Assembly (NCBI GenBank): GCA_902798965.1
Contig: CADBYS010000007.1
Coordinates: 1 to 64,000 of the forward strand
Origin: an uncultured Bacteroidales bacterium
Lineage (GTDB): Bacteria > Bacteroidota > Bacteroidia > Bacteroidales > Paludibacteraceae
Length of the DNA: 64,000 nucleotides
Direction of reading: 5' to 3'
Part shown: piece after piece, positions 48,161-56,509 of the stretch
Numbering within the stretch: the first letter of the stretch is position 1
How the letters are laid out: each line of letters opens with the position of its first letter
The notes under the pieces: model-generated
The model's input: the letters and a program-made list of their open reading frames with translations, nothing else
Databases searched by the model: none
What the model was told of the DNA's origin: nothing
Position numbers and translations under genes: made by a program

Positions 48161-49405
48161 TTATTTAAGCTGGTTGTTTAATACATTCAGTACATTGCCT
48201 TTAACAACGCCCGACATTTCGCTGACATTGCCTTCCTCGTCCATTACCGGAACTTGTGCCAATTCGCTCATGGATTTGATTAATATGGCTGTTTGTTGGA
48301 AAATTTTGATGTGCTCCATATTCTGAGCATCAAAACCTATCATAATGTCAGCCAATTGATCAAGTCCTTGCATACAACGTTCTTTCAACTGCAATGTTAC
48401 ATCTTGCAGTTCCAATGCGCGTTTATTAACGTTATCCAAGATTGTCCAACCAAGTTCCATTTTTGCCTTAAATTCTTTCATATCTGCAAGATACTGTGTG
48501 GCCTCAGTATGTTTCTTGGCAAAATATGCAGTAGCTACGACACTTGCGGATGCTAAAGCGACAACTCCGGTCAACGTACCCAACACTGCCATTCCGCCGG
48601 CTACGCCCAATCCTCCGGAAGCGATACTACCACCTCCTAACCATGCAAACACCGCATTGGTAGCAGCGGCACCATGCAGCGATGCGATTGCAGTGCCTGT
48701 GCTCGCCGCTGCAAATTGTGTCACGAGAGCAGGAACTCCCATAACAACTGCTATTGCATTGCCACCTGAAACGGCCAGTGTTTTCAGTGCCGTTGAGGCA
48801 TTCATATTAACTGTTTCAAGTTCTTTAACTTGTTCGGGCGTAATATTGATACTGGTCATCAGTTCGTATTCCTTAACCTTTGCTTTTTTCTTAATCAGGT
48901 CAAGATAGATAATGAACTTACCGACTGTTTCATGTAATGCGTCAAGTCGTATTCGGCCAAAAGTATCCAGAATCTTGTTACTTTCTTCGCGTCTGCGTTC
49001 GTTCTCAGTCTCAATGTAGGCTTTTATTTCGTCAGCTTCTGTTTTAGCTATTTTTGCTGCTTTACCGTCTTGATATGCCTGCACTCCGCTGATTGTCTTA
49101 CCTATTTTAACAGCGCCTCTTCCTGCCTCTGTGACAATATCAGGTATACCATCTCCATCCGTGTCCTCCGTTAATCTCGTTTTAACGGAATTTCCCATAT
49201 TGATATACGTTTCCTTGTCAGACAAAGTTTGTCCTATTTGGATGTAAGTATCTTTGTTAGTTACCACTTCTGCGGCTGCAGCCGCTTTGTCTTTAGCGAC
49301 CTTCGCTGTTTCCGCCACCGACTCAGCAGTCTTTGCTGCAGCGTCAGCAATTGAACTTCCTACATCAGAAGCCGCTTTTTTTACTTTGTCAAAAAAAGTA
49401 CTCAT
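48161..49405 (-). CDS. glycine-rich membrane protein with Ca2+-type loop
   Basis: 414 residues. The N-terminal 50 residues are Ala/Lys-rich amphipathic repeats (SSIADAAAKTAESVAETAKV), followed by DTDGDGIPD (81-89), a textbook calcium-binding loop of dockerin/thrombospondin type. A long Gly/Ala-rich hydrophobic region (about 212-300, including WLGGGSIASGGLGVAGGMAV) could span the membrane as hairpins, and the C-terminus is coiled coil. No family recognised; pore-forming or membrane-inserting function is an inference from the hydrophobic glycine segment. Confidence 0.7.
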   Translation of the reverse strand: MSTFFDKVKKAASDVGSSIADAAAKTAESVAETAKVAKDKAAAAAEVVTNKDTYIQIGQTLSDKETYINMGNSVKTRLTEDTDGDGIPDIVTEAGRGAVKIGKTISGVQAYQDGKAAKIAKTEADEIKAYIETENERRREESNKILDTFGRIRLDALHETVGKFIIYLDLIKKKAKVKEYELMTSINITPEQVKELETVNMNASTALKTLAVSGGNAIAVVMGVPALVTQFAAASTGTAIASLHGAAATNAVFAWLGGGSIASGGLGVAGGMAVLGTLTGVVALASASVVATAYFAKKHTEATQYLADMKEFKAKMELGWTILDNVNKRALELQDVTLQLKERCMQGLDQLADIMIGFDAQNMEHIKIFQQTAILIKSMSELAQVPVMDEEGNVSEMSGVVKGNVLNVLNNQLK

Positions 49406-49417
49406 ATAAAAAACGAT

Positions 49418-50899
49418 TTAGTTTGTATATCCTTCGTATCCGATGTCCTTAACCTTTAATTCAGGAACATCGGGATTGCCATCTAATCCTAAAAGCTCTC
49501 TATTGATAGCCTCAGCTATGTCCCTCGCAATCTTAATTGCTCTCATATCCCAGCATATTACACTCCATGCAACTCGAAGCGAAACAGCGTTAACCTTGTT
49601 TTCTAAGTGTCGAGCAAAGAGTGCGGGATTTGAGTTGTTGTGATACTTTTGTTTGTCCGCACACAACGAATACCTATTTTCTAAAACATCTGATAAAGAG
49701 TGATAAAAAGCGTCAAAAGCCAATGTGTCGTTCAAAGTGATATTGGGATTTGAAAAAGCAGTTTCACCTTTTTTCAAACCATAGCTAAAATGGAATTGCG
49801 TCGGATATTTCGGCTCAAATTGTCCGCTACTTGGCATCAGTGTGAACACCCAACTATCCGAGGCGTTTGCCAAATAATTCATGTCTTCCATAAACTCCGT
49901 ATTCCCGGGAATATTCAATTCTGGCTTATAGGTATAATATGACAAATACGGGCGAGTCTGTCCTAATTCGCGAGAAATATAATTAAATCCACCAATCATC
50001 GCGAGATAATAGCTCCACCACCCCATAATCGGGTCAACGATATTACCTGGAGAAAAAATGGTCACCTTGCTTCCTCTATCAATACATTGTCCATACACTG
50101 TATTTAATGTATAAAGTTCTACTGCCAGCATATCTTGTGGGTGCTCTTCTGCGGTTTGAGTGACCCCGACATTGATGAGGCGATAGTGGTCATCATTTCT
50201 TACTGCATCAAGAATCTCGTCCTCCTTAAGACCCAAGCGCGCCTGTATTTCAGTTATAGAAATATATTTAGGTGCAATTTGGTATCCTGTAGGTCTATCT
50301 AATTTTCGCTCAAAAGCCAAGTGGAGTGTTTTTATATTTTCATGTATTTGAATTGCTTGTTGTTCTTCCTCCATCGCCCCGATAAAACCGCTAGAGACGA
50401 TACCTGCAGGAATAGCAAATACTGCAACACCTAATAATCCAATTACGTTAGCCACAATCCGACCAAGCAAAGTAATAGGCTTTGGAGGAGCCATCTCACC
50501 CGGGTCTTGGATACATTTCACAAATGTCCATAATAAAGACGTTGGGAAATGCTTATATACAGTTGGCTGGGCAAAGTGTTCTGCCAGATACAGAATAAAC
50601 GACAAAACCAATAGCAGCACAAGCATCAATTCAAAGGTCACCAAGAGTTGGCTTTTGGTCTTGGCAAATGCCTGCTGCAACAGATAAAACGGATTTCTAT
50701 CGGTATGATGCTGTACTACAACATAATTGTCATCCGCTCCGTCATCAGCCGCAGCAACAACTTCCTGAGTTTGATCGCTAATTAATACAATACTGTCACT
50801 TACGACTTTATTTTGTTCGTCGGATCCGGAAACGCACGACGCAAATAAGGTCACTATCAACAGCGACAAACAAATAATGTATTTATTCACTAATCTCAT
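49418..50899 (-). CDS. ion-channel-like pore protein lacking K+ filter
   Basis: 493 residues. N-terminal lipobox-like LFASCVSG (Cys about 22), then a two-helix pore module like S5-P-S6 of voltage-gated K+ channels: helix 88-107 (FELMLVLLLVLSFILYLAEH), pore helix 119-130 (PTSLLWTFVKCI) and helix 142-165 (ANVIGLLGVAVFAIPAGIV). The position of TVGYGD reads CIQDPGE, so K+ selectivity is not expected. The large C-terminal region (about 180-493) is unknown, with GSKVTIFSPGNIVDPIMGWW. First large gene of the operon. Alternative reading: a mechanosensory or ligand-gated relative. Confidence 0.72.
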   Translation of the reverse strand: MRLVNKYIICLSLLIVTLFASCVSGSDEQNKVVSDSIVLISDQTQEVVAAADDGADDNYVVVQHHTDRNPFYLLQQAFAKTKSQLLVTFELMLVLLLVLSFILYLAEHFAQPTVYKHFPTSLLWTFVKCIQDPGEMAPPKPITLLGRIVANVIGLLGVAVFAIPAGIVSSGFIGAMEEEQQAIQIHENIKTLHLAFERKLDRPTGYQIAPKYISITEIQARLGLKEDEILDAVRNDDHYRLINVGVTQTAEEHPQDMLAVELYTLNTVYGQCIDRGSKVTIFSPGNIVDPIMGWWSYYLAMIGGFNYISRELGQTRPYLSYYTYKPELNIPGNTEFMEDMNYLANASDSWVFTLMPSSGQFEPKYPTQFHFSYGLKKGETAFSNPNITLNDTLAFDAFYHSLSDVLENRYSLCADKQKYHNNSNPALFARHLENKVNAVSLRVAWSVICWDMRAIKIARDIAEAINRELLGLDGNPDVPELKVKDIGYEGYTN

Positions 50900-51345: not shown

Positions 51346-51591
51346 CTATGATTTCTCGCGCTTGAGAGATTCACGAGCGCTTTCAATCTGACGTTTCAGT
51401 GAATCGATAGCACTATCATGGCGTGCAGCGGCATCGATTTTAGATTTACGATAAGATGCCTTGCTCGAAGGTGAAGATGCACCTTTAACCAAAGAAGCAT
51501 AACGCTCATTATCGCGCTTCTTGGCTTCTTTTTCTCTGTCAAGACTTGCACGCAAGTCGATAATACGCTTGCGATAATACTCTTTACTCAT
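51346..51591 (-). CDS. small coiled-coil protein
   Basis: 81 residues, almost wholly charged helix: YYRKRIIDLRASLDREKEAKK, a Ser/Lys-rich middle (GASSPSSKASYRKSKID), then IDSLKRQIESARESLKREK. No signal or membrane segment. Last gene of the radical-SAM unit (23 bases after the GIY-YIG-like stop). No function can be assigned. Confidence 0.6.
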   Translation of the reverse strand: MSKEYYRKRIIDLRASLDREKEAKKRDNERYASLVKGASSPSSKASYRKSKIDAAARHDSAIDSLKRQIESARESLKREKS

Positions 51592-51614: not shown

Positions 51615-52163
51615 TTATTTCAGTTTTCGTTTATTCATTACATATTCGCGCCACATATCGCTGATAGCGGGATTGCCATCCATATTCAGAGGATAAGCGC
51701 CAAGCGAAATCGCTGTCATTTCCAACATGTCAACCAACTCTTTGTCATCAGCAAGTTCTATCCATTCGTAGTAACAACGGCTTAAGATGGCACTTATCTC
51801 CGCTTCTGCTTTGGTTGCATCAACATTGGAGAATAACAGAGCGTACAATGTTCTGCGTAATGTTGAGTTATCCATTGGTCCATTGATGTGATGTCTAAAT
51901 CTCTTACGCCCGTTGATACTCTTGCCGAAATAGAGTGCACAATATGTATCTTCACCAATCTTCTTTTTCTTCAGGCGAGAATGATATAGATAATGCATTT
52001 GTGCGTCTTCAGGCTTATCCTTTAGATATTTCTCGATAGCTTTAATCGGTTCTGATTCACAAGAGAACCACCAGCGATAGAGAATGGGCACATTGTGCGG
52101 AAGATCCGTTGTAAGCGTTGTGCCATTAGACAATTCAGATATTGGTAGATAATAACAATTCAT
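51615..52163 (-). CDS. GIY-YIG-nuclease-like protein
   Basis: About 182 residues. VPILYRWWF (about 25-33) and YCALYFGKSINGRKRFRHHI (about 74-93) correspond to the two GIY-YIG half motifs with the conserved Arg, followed by STLRRTLYALL, as in the AlwI-like branch. Catalytic Glu may be E120-E124 in KAEAEISAIL. Cuts or used to cut DNA; targets unknown. GTG at 52169 also begins this frame; ATG 52163 preferred. Preceded by a strong hairpin that could limit its expression relative to the peptide gene. Confidence 0.62.
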   Translation of the reverse strand: MNCYYLPISELSNGTTLTTDLPHNVPILYRWWFSCESEPIKAIEKYLKDKPEDAQMHYLYHSRLKKKKIGEDTYCALYFGKSINGRKRFRHHINGPMDNSTLRRTLYALLFSNVDATKAEAEISAILSRCYYEWIELADDKELVDMLEMTAISLGAYPLNMDGNPAISDMWREYVMNKRKLK

Positions 52164-52175
52164 AATCACAAAAGC

Positions 52176-52201
52176 GGAAGCTGCTGCACGCAGCAGCTTC
52201 C
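52176..52201 (-). terminator. strong 12-bp hairpin between peptide and GIY-YIG genes
   Basis: GGAAGCTGCTGC and GCAGCAGCTTCC pair around a 2-4 nt loop; on the minus strand GCTTTTG follows. The hairpin lies directly after the peptide ORF, as expected for a partial terminator that keeps precursor mRNA more abundant than the downstream gene. Confidence 0.7.
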
Positions 52202-52212
52202 TTACAGGGTGT

Positions 52213-52329
52213 TTAGAAATTTCTCTTTGTCTTGCAAGTCATCGAACCAGCTTGGTCACGATTCAAGCATTTAGTACCCGATGCGGGATTAACTACACCC
52301 ATGCTTACAACCAAATTTACAGATTTCAT
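52213..52329 (-). CDS. 38-residue candidate modified-peptide precursor
   Basis: ORF of 38 codons on the minus strand starting MKSVNLVVSMGVVNPASG and ending CKTKRNF. It has two Cys (residues 21 and 32) separated by Asn, Arg, Asp, Gln, Ser and Met, and no signal peptide. It begins 40 bases after the stop of a radical-SAM/SPASM enzyme and is followed by a strong hairpin, the standard arrangement of a ribosomally made peptide and its maturase. Inference: Cys residues are thioether-linked by the enzyme. Not found by length-limited gene calling. Confidence 0.62.
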   Translation of the reverse strand: MKSVNLVVSMGVVNPASGTKCLNRDQAGSMTCKTKRNF

Positions 52330-52368
52330 AATCTTAGTTATTAATAGTTACAGAGGATTTATGGGACC

Positions 52369-53910
52369 TCATTTGCCCGTTTCTTTATATTCTCTATGCA
52401 AAGGAGAGAAAACATACTCAGGTAGAAGTTCAAGATTTTCCTTTAGCGATTTTCCATTAAGCACATCTACTCCAGCCCTCAAATTCATCATTAAAGAATA
52501 CTTGTTTTTTGCACAGTAACAGTCATTCTCATTAGAGTGAAAAGGAGTTCCATGCTCAGCGTAGCTATTTCCGGCACAGAAAGTACAGCACTTACAATAG
52601 TCATGAGTTCCGCACTCAACATATTCAGATTCCTTTGCTCCTAATAATTTATTCAGTTTTGGGTTATTCGTTATAATAGAATGAAAGTCTTGTTGTCTTA
52701 AATCGCCTAACTCCATGTGCATAGCGACACAAGGGATTAACTTTCCGTTAGGCATTACACAAAACGTTCCTTGACCGGCCAAACATGGCACTCCTTGTTT
52801 ACATGGAGCCGGATTGGAAGTCATCTCAAAGTCTTCATTTTTAGATTCAACATCCGGATCCATCATTATCAATTCCATTTCTTCAGGAGTGAGACGAAGA
52901 TGTTTCGTGGCACAGACATCGCCATCCATAGAACTTATTACTCCATAATCAATCGAAATAGGACATGACAATTTTTGTGCAAGGGATTTTAGTTCCAAAT
53001 AGGACTTTACTCCAGGTCGCATAAGTACACAATTGATTCCAACAGAAATTCCTCTATCTTTAAGAGCATGGATTACATCCATTGTTATTTGCCATGAACC
53101 TTTCTTACGCGTTATACCATCGTGCATTTCCGGATTAGCAGCATATAGAGATATGCGTACGGTTCTTGGGTAAAACTTTGCGAGTTTATCTATTTGATTA
53201 ACTATCTGCTGCCCATTTGTAAGTATCGCAATAGCGATGTCCTTTTGGTACAAGTATTCAATAATTCCCCAAATGTCTTTATAAGAAAAAGGATCTCCTC
53301 CGCTGAGAGATACTGATACTAAACCGGCATCGCACATCTGGTCAATAATACGCTTGTAATCGGACAGAGTAAGCTCATCAAAATCTGCTCGGCCGCTTTT
53401 TTCCTCATCATTACGAGTGGCGCCTAAATTATAACAATGCAAACATCTCTCACTACAACGATATGTGAGTTCAAATAATGCCCCTGTAATTTCTGTACAA
53501 TCAGCTACTGCATGATAATACGCTTCTTCTACGCTACTTATATCACAATGAATGTAATGCTCTGCATTATCGCCTATATAGGTCGTTATATTGGGCTGTG
53601 AGGCACAATGTTTTCTATATTGCTCGACATCGCTATAAGTAGGATATTTTTCCGACAAAAGACCTATCTCCACCAAAGAAGCAAAGAAAGGCAGAATGGA
53701 ATCTGGAGAAATATTTAATGTCTCTGATATTTGAGAAACGGACACCTCTCCATTACGACTGGCTGCAAGTATCATACCAACAACATCAGCAGATTCATGT
53801 TCAAAGAAGTACTCTCCGTTCATGAGTAGATTGAACATGATTGCAACATGCTTGGTTGCGTTATATTTGCCACATGTCCATTCCGGACGATAAAAAATGT
53901 TATTCTTCAT
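52369..53910 (-). CDS. radical SAM/SPASM peptide maturase
   Basis: 513 residues. N-terminal part (about 20-95) looks like a PqqD-type peptide-binding or winged-helix domain (VSQISETLNISPDSILPFFASLVEIGLL). The radical-SAM cluster motif is CSERCLHC (Cys152, 156, 159). The C-terminal SPASM region has Cys in PCKQGVPCLAGQG, FCVMPNGKLIPC and CKCCTFCAGNSY...DCYC, enough for two auxiliary Fe-S clusters. Such enzymes form Cys- or carbon-carbon crosslinks in peptides (AlbA, PqqE, SCIFF maturase). First gene after the promoter at 53943-53978. Confidence 0.85.
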   Translation of the reverse strand: MKNNIFYRPEWTCGKYNATKHVAIMFNLLMNGEYFFEHESADVVGMILAASRNGEVSVSQISETLNISPDSILPFFASLVEIGLLSEKYPTYSDVEQYRKHCASQPNITTYIGDNAEHYIHCDISSVEEAYYHAVADCTEITGALFELTYRCSERCLHCYNLGATRNDEEKSGRADFDELTLSDYKRIIDQMCDAGLVSVSLSGGDPFSYKDIWGIIEYLYQKDIAIAILTNGQQIVNQIDKLAKFYPRTVRISLYAANPEMHDGITRKKGSWQITMDVIHALKDRGISVGINCVLMRPGVKSYLELKSLAQKLSCPISIDYGVISSMDGDVCATKHLRLTPEEMELIMMDPDVESKNEDFEMTSNPAPCKQGVPCLAGQGTFCVMPNGKLIPCVAMHMELGDLRQQDFHSIITNNPKLNKLLGAKESEYVECGTHDYCKCCTFCAGNSYAEHGTPFHSNENDCYCAKNKYSLMMNLRAGVDVLNGKSLKENLELLPEYVFSPLHREYKETGK

Positions 53911-54310: not shown

Positions 54311-54795
54311 CTATTTTAACATCCCTTTGACCATCTTTCGCAGTTCTTCCTTATTAGGGAGGAATAGTTCATACTTCGAGACAAACAGATTGCTATCCAC
54401 GTCAATTTTTCAGATGTCTGAAAATTTTGCGAAGATTTGTCAGATGTCTGACATTTGGGAAACATCAAGTAGAACTTGCGCATGTTGTTCAAATTAGGAT
54501 GGCTATAGCCTCGCCCGACTCTTGCGCGAAGAATCTTGGAAAGGTTGGAAAGCATAGCAGTTCCGTACTTTGCACGCTTGTTACCATCCTGTTCAAACTC
54601 AACAATATGACGACCAATCCTCCAATATGTCGTTTTGATGGTTTCGCTGATGCTAATGGCTAAGGCTCTTTTTCCATCCTCTATTTCTTGCACAATCTTG
54701 TCGGCAAGCAAGGAAAGATCTGCATCAGGCAACACAACTGGATGATCAATCTTTGCAAGTTCGTTATTCATATTTCTATGTGGCATTTCATTCAT
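54311..54795 (-). pseudogene. DUF1016 (YhcG-type) gene with middle deleted
   Basis: N-terminal DUF1016 sequence is intact to about residue 130 (TYWRIGRHIVEFEQDGNKRAKYG, HPNLNNMRKFYLMFPKCQT, QTSEKLTW). Reading then leaves frame; in another frame the next bases encode DSNLFVSKYELFLPNKEELRKMVKGMLK and a stop, which is the normal C-terminus of this family. So about 200 central codons (the PDDEXK nuclease region) are missing and the join is out of frame. The intact promoter at 54886-54921 is retained. Confidence 0.82.
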
Positions 54796-54984: not shown

Positions 54985-55947
54985 TTATGGTTCAGAAAGC
55001 AGATTATTGATAAATTCAGTCGTCTTATTAGTCCAAAACGTGTATATTTGGTCGCGACGTAATTCATCATCAGGATACAGGTTCATGAGCGAGTCACGAA
55101 TAGCAAAGCCTCTCTGAGATTCCTCGGAAATAGCCGAAATTTTAGTTATTACATCATCTGATTGTTCTGCCGCGTGACGGATAGCTGCATAGTGTTGCTC
55201 CAAAGAGGTGTTGACCCGCTCGAGCATCAGTTGTTCCTCTTGCTCGGCAGCATGGCGCTCGTTTTGGGCGGCATAGAAGAGACTCGCTGCAACAGCCAAC
55301 AAACAAACGGAAAATATAACAGGTAATGCGCGAAGTACTCGGCGCGTTACGGCATAACGGCGCGGATAAATCTTCCGGAGCAGTTCTTGCGCTTGCGCAT
55401 TCTCGTTACGTATATCGTCGGCGGAAGCATAGATGCTGTCATCCGTTTCGCTTAGCCCGAAATCGATAAGTTTGACGTTACAGCCATTACGCGTGATGAG
55501 TATATTATCGCCTTTCAGATCGCGATGAGTCAGCTGGTGCGCATGGATATAATCCAAAGTGTCTTGCAGTTGTCCGACTACTCGTTCGCGGGCAGTCCAA
55601 GACGGTTTGGCAAGCAGCCATTGCGTTAAAGTCTGCCCTTCGATATACTCCTGAACGATACACTCCCCTAACCCTTCGACAGGTTCAAGGGAAAAGGTTG
55701 TTGCTATATTCGGATGGGATAAGGCAATACCGGTTCGGAACTCACGTTGCAGCATCCGGCGATATTCTGTGAGCGCACGATGTTCGGGACGCAGGGCTTT
55801 GATCAGGAATCGCCGGTCGTACCGTACTCCGCTATAGATAAGGCAGTTCTTGCGCTCCTGAAGGAGCGTAAGATCCGACCATTCGGTGTTCCATGTATCG
55901 GAAGCTATGAAGCCGGAAGAACTCGGGCTGTTATACTCTGCGGACAT
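54985..55947 (-). CDS. Ser/Thr kinase-like protein with one membrane helix
   Basis: 320 residues. Kinase N-lobe Lys in [12 protein letters not shown] (about 50), catalytic loop HRDLKGDN (141-148) and DFG (162-164). The C-lobe stops early: after DFGLSETDD only a short helix remains (no APE motif) before a membrane helix ([21 protein letters not shown], about 207-227) and a periplasmic coiled coil. Active-site residues are present but the substrate lobe is lacking, so activity is uncertain. It overlaps the upstream partner gene by 17 bases. Confidence 0.78.
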
Positions 55948-56509
55948 AGGTCAAGCCGTGACGTTTGCCGGCCACATAGGTTTTTGGAGGTTGATTTTCT
56001 TGGACTACATTATCCAGATACATAGGGCGATTGACAAGGAAACAAACGGCACTACACGTATCACCGGCATGCAACTTGCTATTCTCTGCCTCCACAACCG
56101 TAAACCGGTTCGTTCCTTCATAGCGCAATACCGCGCGTCGGTTCGGTCGCCAGGCTACTTCCACACAATCTCCTGCTTGCAGCTCATCAGCCCGCACACC
56201 TTCTCCCACAAATGTCTCACTGTCTGCTTCCTGACGGTCAGAAAGCGCCTGCAAATACTCCTCCCATGAAGCGTATCCTAATAAATGGCATAGAATAGAA
56301 AGTGTAGTATGACGTGGCGTTTGCGCGCCGTCGATATAGTTCCACAGGCGCTTTAATGTGGTGGGAGACAGGTATTCGTGCGATACCTCCCAGATACGCA
56401 GATTGAGCCAGTCGAAATCCGTAGGCGTACGCATTTCCCGCCCCATAAGCTGCTCAATATCTGCTCGCAGCGATACTATTTCTGGTGATTGTTTTGTCAA
56501 AATATCCAC
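55931..56509 (-). CDS. hypothetical partner of the kinase-like protein
   Basis: 192 residues. The N-terminal part is helical ([43 protein letters not shown]), reading like a helix-turn-helix with a lambda-repressor-like core. The C-terminal half is beta-rich ([20 protein letters not shown]) and could be a small sensor or RNA/DNA-binding fold. Pairs of this HTH-like protein and a membrane kinase occur in Bacteroidota; the function is unproven. Translationally coupled to the kinase gene. Confidence 0.6.

Follow-up and report, generated by a model that had tools for sequence, protein, structure and literature searches.

Our comparative analysis indicates that a radical-SAM/SPASM enzyme and the short ribosomal peptide encoded directly after it very probably form a RiPP-type maturase and precursor pair, the enzyme modifying the peptide, as judged from the sequences of 25 distinct loci in Bacteroidales genomes. 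The short ORF is conserved and, from the pattern of its codon changes, under coding selection, and a conserved H-type RNA pseudoknot precedes it. The literature searched, mostly without subscription papers, yielded no description of the peptide-maturase family or of the pseudoknot, and within that scope this is an undescribed precursor-maturase family of a known kind, its unusual parts being the conserved RNA element and a lineage-specific partner protein.

Organization of the cassette in the window

The cassette lies in a stretch of 64,000 nucleotides (hereafter the window) belonging to a rumen bacterium with a 2.85-Mb draft genome of 51 contigs, in which the maturase is single-copy. The features of the cassette and its surroundings are as follows:

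52369..53910, minus strand: radical-SAM/SPASM maturase of 513 aa (Pfam, and Cys conservation in 25 aligned loci)
52353..52378, minus strand: H-type RNA pseudoknot (comparative evidence), with the maturase stop codon (52371-52369) inside loop 1/stem 2
52330..52352, minus strand: A/U-rich spacer of 23 nt from the pseudoknot to the peptide start codon
52213..52329, minus strand: precursor-like peptide ORF of 38 codons with an ATG start, MKSVNLVVSMGVVNPASGTKCLNRDQAGSMTCKTKRNF, with leader MKSVNLVVSMG and Cys at 21 and 32
52176..52201, minus strand: terminator-like hairpin 3' of the peptide ORF, with 11 pairs, a loop of 4 and a T-containing tail
51615..52169, minus strand: GIY-YIG protein (PF20815; GIY_YIG_2, 3.9e-12)
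51346..51591, minus strand: charged ORF of 81 aa without a Pfam family, also found in loci L072 and L075, there without the maturase
54985..55947, minus strand: protein-kinase-domain protein (Pfam Pkinase, 1e-17)
55931..56509, minus strand: 192-aa protein paired with the kinase, with relatives near cassette loci

The two-Cys ORF of 38 codons announced by the original prediction is real, and it is separated from the maturase stop (which ends at 52369) by 39 nt, instead of the 40 bases claimed. The hairpin that had been placed directly 3' of the ORF is likewise present, but with 11 pairs rather than 12 bp, and it begins 11 nt past the peptide stop codon (52201-52176). A fold of -15 kcal/mol or lower occurs within 60 nt 3' of the peptide stop in 21 of 24 loci.

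Conservation of the maturase-peptide pair

Relatives of the maturase were searched for at several taxonomic depths: in the genus (7 of 178 genomes at E <= 1e-60), in the family (17 of 358 at E <= 1e-30, 9 of these matching over almost the entire length), with a second query, in genomes sampled evenly across the order (8 of 393, 7 of them almost whole-length, own genome counted) and in one hit-rich family of the order (12 of 173). From these searches a set of 25 distinct loci with full-length-type maturases was assembled; L010, where a contig end carries 132 nt of a relative, was dropped. A short ORF of 33-38 residues follows the maturase in all 25, as the original prediction had proposed checking, and lies 11-60 nt past the maturase stop in the 24 loci where both genes share one contig. 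In the remaining locus (G048) the maturase contig stops inside the ORF, and a second contig, starting with the same junction, gives MKVELGISAASNVVSMSGCSKQSEPQCGMMYRMG. Since related ORFs are present in 25 of 25 loci and their pN/pS values are low (see below), the short ORF is more than a product of chance.

Nine weaker matches (E 1e-31 to 1e-40) were confined to the radical-SAM core; six of them were fetched and three (G054, G162 and G033) left out, and a Cys-bearing short ORF was absent 3' of the radical-SAM gene in five of the six. The one with such an ORF, L047 (genome G340), carries 38 residues with three Cys, 57 nt past the stop of a 31%-identical radical-SAM gene of another subfamily.

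No close relative of the maturase was found in the phages, plasmids and viral contigs searched, the best non-chromosomal likenesses being seven plasmid records at no more than 24.9% identity and one viral contig at 25%. In the maturase tree, genomes of family f1 fall in three separate supported groups, with members of f29 and f81 and genomes of f101 among or beside them; this mixing of families suggests horizontal transfer, as read from the gene tree alone, without a species tree. Two of the 25 maturases (L029 near 2258-2200 and L036 near 1566, both minus strand, in drafts G052 and G048) are interrupted by small N-terminal length changes, for which assembly error and decay are both possible and cannot be told apart. 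Two other frames, L035:7962-10022 and L034:7943-9892 (minus strand), extend N-terminally by ~140-180 residues with no nearby ATG and may be fusions; the extension in L035 matches the ADP-ribosyltransferase domain PF03496 at 23.7 bits (cut-off 23.4).

The maturase

The window enzyme matches the Pfam models Radical_SAM (6.9e-22) and SPASM (1.1e-5), as do all 19 members scanned. The three Cys of its CX3CX2C motif (C152, C156 and C159) are kept in 25 of 25 aligned loci; among the SPASM Cys (C376, C394, C433, C439, C442, C445 and C464), six of the seven are equally invariant and C464 is found in 24 of 25. None of the best 25 NCBIfam models reached its cut-off against the window maturase, the top one being TIGR04053 with 104 of 395 bits. 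By profile comparison, the nearest solved sequences are SkfB (1.1e-17), PqqE (5.6e-16) and 5wgg (4.7e-11), the last being CteB according to the accessible text of PMC10352776.

The N-terminal ~140 aa hold a conserved RPxWTCGRYN motif, followed by a winged-helix-like pattern with weak winged-helix matches only. This region had been predicted to be PqqD-like, an assignment that found no backing: the Pfam PqqD model matched 0 of 19 members, a PqqD search over 101 genomes did not pick out the maturase in its own genome, and hhalign against 30 PqqD domains gave a probability of 7%. An RRE/PqqD-like leader-binding domain is common in RiPP systems but not obligatory, and the lack of support for one in these comparisons counts against the precursor-maturase reading. 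An AlphaFold model made with two sequences, with pLDDT 39, was too poor to use.

The peptide family and its predicted modification

An alignment of 23 of the 24 peptides then read gives the N-terminal consensus MKxVELxIS (MKSVNLVVS in the window), with a variable remainder. Across whole ORFs, pN/pS ranged from 0.00 to 0.53 in all 12 pairs compared, which bears on the original prediction's own refuting case, a pattern without coding selection, and speaks for coding. For the window and L029, codons 1-11 give 0.05 and the remaining codons 0.51. In most pairs the leader changes less than the remainder, though not in all: between L030 and L031 it shows 0.59 against 0.50, and between L039 and L067 the protein-level changes are confined to it.

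Cys residues recur at defined places, at position 26-32 in 25 of 25 peptides and at 18-21 in 22 of 25, and at least two are present in 23 of 25. The spacing of 11 described for the window is correct for that peptide but is not conserved: in the window clade it is 11, 9 (L029), 6 (L030) and 6 (L031), and in all 15 peptides of the main type it is 8, as C-x7-CG ahead of a variable stretch that contains Arg. With the first Cys missing in 3 of 25 peptides and a single Cys in 2 of 25 (the number ranging from 1 to 4), no single Cys pattern is obligatory. The window peptide matched no Pfam or NCBIfam model, in agreement with the earlier statement that it fits no known precursor family, and the GG motif is indeed absent before its core; none of the curated SCIFF/ranthipeptide precursor models was matched by the peptides.

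In the mechanism that we propose, the maturase would bind the leader, i.e., the conserved N-terminal part, form a 5'-deoxyadenosyl radical and crosslink residues of the core, the variable Cys-bearing C-terminal part. The crosslink would most likely run from a Cys sulfur to a carbon of a neighboring residue, giving a thioether as in sactipeptides and ranthipeptides. The presence of a Cys at 26-32 throughout the family and the thioether formation known for SkfB and CteB, two of the nearest solved relatives, argue for this chemistry and against another bond or an epimer in the core with the paired Cys forming a disulfide. SPASM enzymes also make C-C, C-O and other bonds, and both the number of Cys (1-4) and the length of the loop between them (6-11) vary, so that we regard such a non-thioether product as possible, if the less expected outcome.

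Genomic neighborhood

The neighbors were defined by clustering ORFs across the fetched flanks, and a family-model scan covered part of them. A kinase-domain gene is found in the flanks of 14 of the 25 cassette loci and its paired protein of ~190 residues (192 aa in the window) in 11 of 25; of the 18 maturase genomes searched, 14 have the latter no more than about 12 kb from the maturase. The kinase and 192-aa pair was set aside as a dedicated part of the cassette, given that the 192-aa protein is encoded in 26 of 61 relatives' genomes, 23 of which are without the maturase. A second, shortened copy (57 aa) of the kinase partner follows the kinase closely in L081 (5251-5841 and 6882-7055), and a similar fragment is present in G008.

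The GIY-YIG-like gene that the original prediction noted as following the peptide is confirmed, and it stands 3' of the peptide in 3 loci of the genus as well as in islands without the maturase; it is part of the island and a candidate cassette member at most. Twelve stretches were fetched around kinase pairs, and there the GIY-YIG gene, the 81-aa ORF and a channel-like gene turn up repeatedly in the absence of the maturase. The cassette thus seems to be one interchangeable cargo within an island of modular build. Islands L072, L075 and L082, with the same kinase pair, have repeated small proteins (MAEIALKGNMKVKTLKADFKKAFG...) in the slot that holds the maturase cassette in the window. The channel-like protein of the window (49418-50899, minus strand) has a pore loop QDPG/GDPG recognized by eye and no Pfam match; its relative in L030, 2.2-3.9 kb past the maturase stop, reads like a voltage-gated channel, of which the window copy is shorter.

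Inspection by eye of the neighbor clusters revealed no conserved exporter or protease/peptidase, and in this the earlier remark on the lack of an obvious exporter holds. An ABC-type ATPase (cluster 8), which we take to be a chromosomal gene, is present in four loci, several kb upstream. The lack of a recognized exporter or protease is unusual for a secreted RiPP and counts against the precursor-maturase reading.

Around the cassette, two ORFs, both on the minus strand, match candidate defense models: 48161-49405 (PDC-M09A, 4e-20) and 54316-54795 (PDC-S02/DUF1016_N, 2.1e-30). Together with the kinase genes in the vicinity of 14 of 25 loci and a weak, generic likeness of the enzyme to prokaryotic viperin models (4.3e-15), these would suit a defense-like island in which the enzyme is a radical-SAM effector acting on another molecule, e.g., a nucleotide, as prokaryotic viperin does, and the peptide is its regulator or antidote. 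We consider this quite unlikely, as the viperin match is restricted to the common radical-SAM core (43.4 bits versus a cut-off of 180; residues 146-299 for PADLOC pVip, two plain viperin models), the enzyme has a SPASM domain with conserved auxiliary-cluster Cys, its closest solved relatives modify peptides, and a Cys-rich variable core is typical of substrates.

Maturation of the peptide to a small cofactor for a nearby enzyme, in the manner of PqqA to PQQ or MftA to mycofactocin, would account for a SPASM enzyme beside a short peptide with no exporter recognized, and the more similar models include those of PqqE and the mycofactocin maturase, far under cut-off. Nevertheless, a cofactor core should be near-fixed, and close loci differ in C-terminal residues, Cys number and Cys spacing; furthermore, no conserved dedicated redox enzyme was recognized in the flanks. 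We find this reading very unlikely; under the precursor-maturase reading, the variable core would instead give a product for competition or recognition.

The pseudoknot preceding the peptide gene

In the window, stem 1 of the pseudoknot pairs 52378-52376 with 52365-52363 (GGG/CCC), loop 1 spans 52375-52371, stem 2 pairs 52370-52367 with 52356-52353 (GAGG/CCUC), and loop 3 spans 52362-52357. An H-type pseudoknot can be drawn in all 24 junctions scanned, with a common layout: stem 1 of 3-6 pairs, mostly GGG/CCC; loop 1, mostly UAAAU or CAAAU; stem 2 of 4-7 pairs; one or two bases; stem 1'; loop 3 of 3-10; and stem 2'. Stem lengths, and the register of L037, were set by hand, and in L029 and L038 the best-scoring fold used a stem 2 different from the family register.

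The mean score of the pseudoknots was 24.1, against 11.6 in dinucleotide shuffles, and the observed value was reached by 43 of 1440 shuffles, most of them belonging to a few loci (12 of 60 in L031, 6 of 60 in the window), single copies being modest. The window's own copy is weak by itself, and the case for it is comparative. Among 16 distinct elements, stem-2 positions show up to four Watson-Crick pair types. In the 12 of 24 junctions with like geometry (9 distinct rows), covariation was 0.475, against 0.158 in shuffles, none of 500 being as high, and no more than 0.253 in slid controls; 97.5% of the cells are paired, and two-sided changes occur in 6 of 9 pairs.

A strict pseudoknot motif applied to both strands of 1.43 Mb of fetched sequence (loci L029 onward) gave 30 matches, all at maturase-peptide junctions, of which 19 are distinct; the motif misses six junctions, that of the window included. 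A covariance model of stem 2 plus sequence, run over 173 and 178 whole genomes, matched at junctions only, in 12 and 7 genomes respectively, most of the junctions found having also trained the model. Since the filters were strict and 32-33 candidates were scored per genome, in addition to this training overlap, weak copies elsewhere may be missed. In Rfam, searched with 13 loci at E up to 5, three weak matches were obtained, all below gathering scores and none of them a family hit at the junction: two lie in L003, 3' of the peptide, and the third (RFPL3-AS1_2, E 4.1) covers the L004 junction on the other strand. Short H-type pseudoknots adjoining a gene and a terminator also occur in type III toxin-antitoxin RNAs and in small pseudoknot riboswitches; unlike those, the cassette element is single-copy, 5' of the peptide ORF and without an Rfam match in those 13 loci.

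Across the 24 junctions, the pseudoknot and the peptide start are 19-27 nt apart, and the distance between stem 1 and the last base of the maturase stop ranges from -9 to +42. Because the first distance is near-fixed and the second variable, the pseudoknot belongs to the peptide gene and not to the stop codon; programmed frameshifting was set aside on the same variable distance. We infer that it is a translation or stability element: serving as a 5' end that stabilizes the RNA or acting in translation, it would set the expression of the peptide and keep substrate in excess over enzyme. That the junction is instead a structured regulatory RNA, with the conserved pseudoknot and a 3' hairpin as its parts and the short ORF incidental, is highly improbable in view of the coding selection, a frame kept over 33-38 codons in divergent loci and leader conservation at the protein level.

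The partner protein of approximately 280 residues

A protein of ~280 residues is encoded 3' of the peptide in 12 loci (11 from flank clustering, plus G048), and the window, without it, has the GIY-YIG gene in its place. In the 173-genome family, the partner was found in 5 genomes, all within the 12 maturase carriers and adjoining the maturase. Of 15 C-x7-CG peptides, 12 have the partner beside them, as against 0 of 9 peptides at the other loci with readable DNA (Fisher p 0.0003, for loci related by descent, with L029 represented by only 749 bp and L042 having too little DNA). Three changes of partner label are needed on the tree, as calculated before the twelfth case (G048). In one nested case (L039 and L067), the C-x7-CG motif, the first Cys and the partner are all missing together. 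At C-x7-CG loci, the partner probably acts on the same peptide as the maturase; the window cassette lacks it.

The Pfam scan of the partner gave no match, and a motif of SelO (YdiU), a protein adenylyltransferase, prompted a comparison with that protein. Colinear motifs are found (HGR/DGR, KGNGL/KGxG, LGIxT, H-x6-N and N-x8-D); on the other hand, the catalytic-loop residues differ, and the likeness is not significant. Because hhalign gave 11% probability with eight SelO sequences and 0.1% with E. coli SelO alone, and kinase profiles did no better, a SelO-like nature of the partner is suggestive at most. An ordinary kinase was rejected as an identity for the partner, with hhalign at 2.6% and a best PDB E of 0.095.

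Discussion

The precursor-maturase reading has its closest parallels in the sactipeptide maturases SkfB and AlbA, where a radical-SAM and SPASM enzyme likewise stands next to a short precursor containing Cys; among solved proteins SkfB gives the best profile match, and the AlbA model scores 86 bits against a cut-off of 850. In contrast to those systems, the family described here, whose modification is predicted, has a precursor unrelated to any model, the order enzyme then peptide, and no exporter recognized. With the ranthipeptide maturases (CteB; SCIFF, TIGR03973) it shares a Cys core with variable acceptors and the SPASM Cys set, whereas the precursor model match and the six-Cys pattern are absent.

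RiPP clusters have been described in Bacteroidales in which the precursors bear a GG motif and the transporters contain a peptidase (PMC10352776). According to the accessible text of that survey, a radical-SAM enzyme alone is the commonest modifying enzyme in those clusters of the same bacterial order; in contrast, the present cassette lacks the GG motif, and no transporter was recognized in it. The same text gives no radical-SAM area in the survey's two Paludibacteraceae genomes.

Concerning the original prediction as a whole, a real and conserved ORF was correctly singled out, and neither of the two outcomes named there as refuting was observed; the PqqD-like domain found no support, the Cys spacing did not generalize, and the prediction had missed the pseudoknot as well as the partner gene present elsewhere in the family.

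A more elaborate proposal, which we judge unlikely, is that the family forms a new Bacteroidales class of modified peptides in which the pseudoknot RNA would meter the precursor and a partner present in one lineage, a SelO-like nucleotidylyl- or pseudokinase, would add a second modification to peptides of the C-x7-CG type; the peptides would stay inside the cell or act in the kinase-bearing, defense-like island, their core diversifying as a recognition element.

With 25 natural pairs, a fixed leader and diverse cores, the family offers a tractable set of enzymes and substrates. It adds a conserved mRNA pseudoknot 5' of a RiPP-type precursor, and an unclassified partner that tracks one peptide type, to the biology of its carriers, uncultured Bacteroidales of gut and rumen, a group with few well-known RiPPs.
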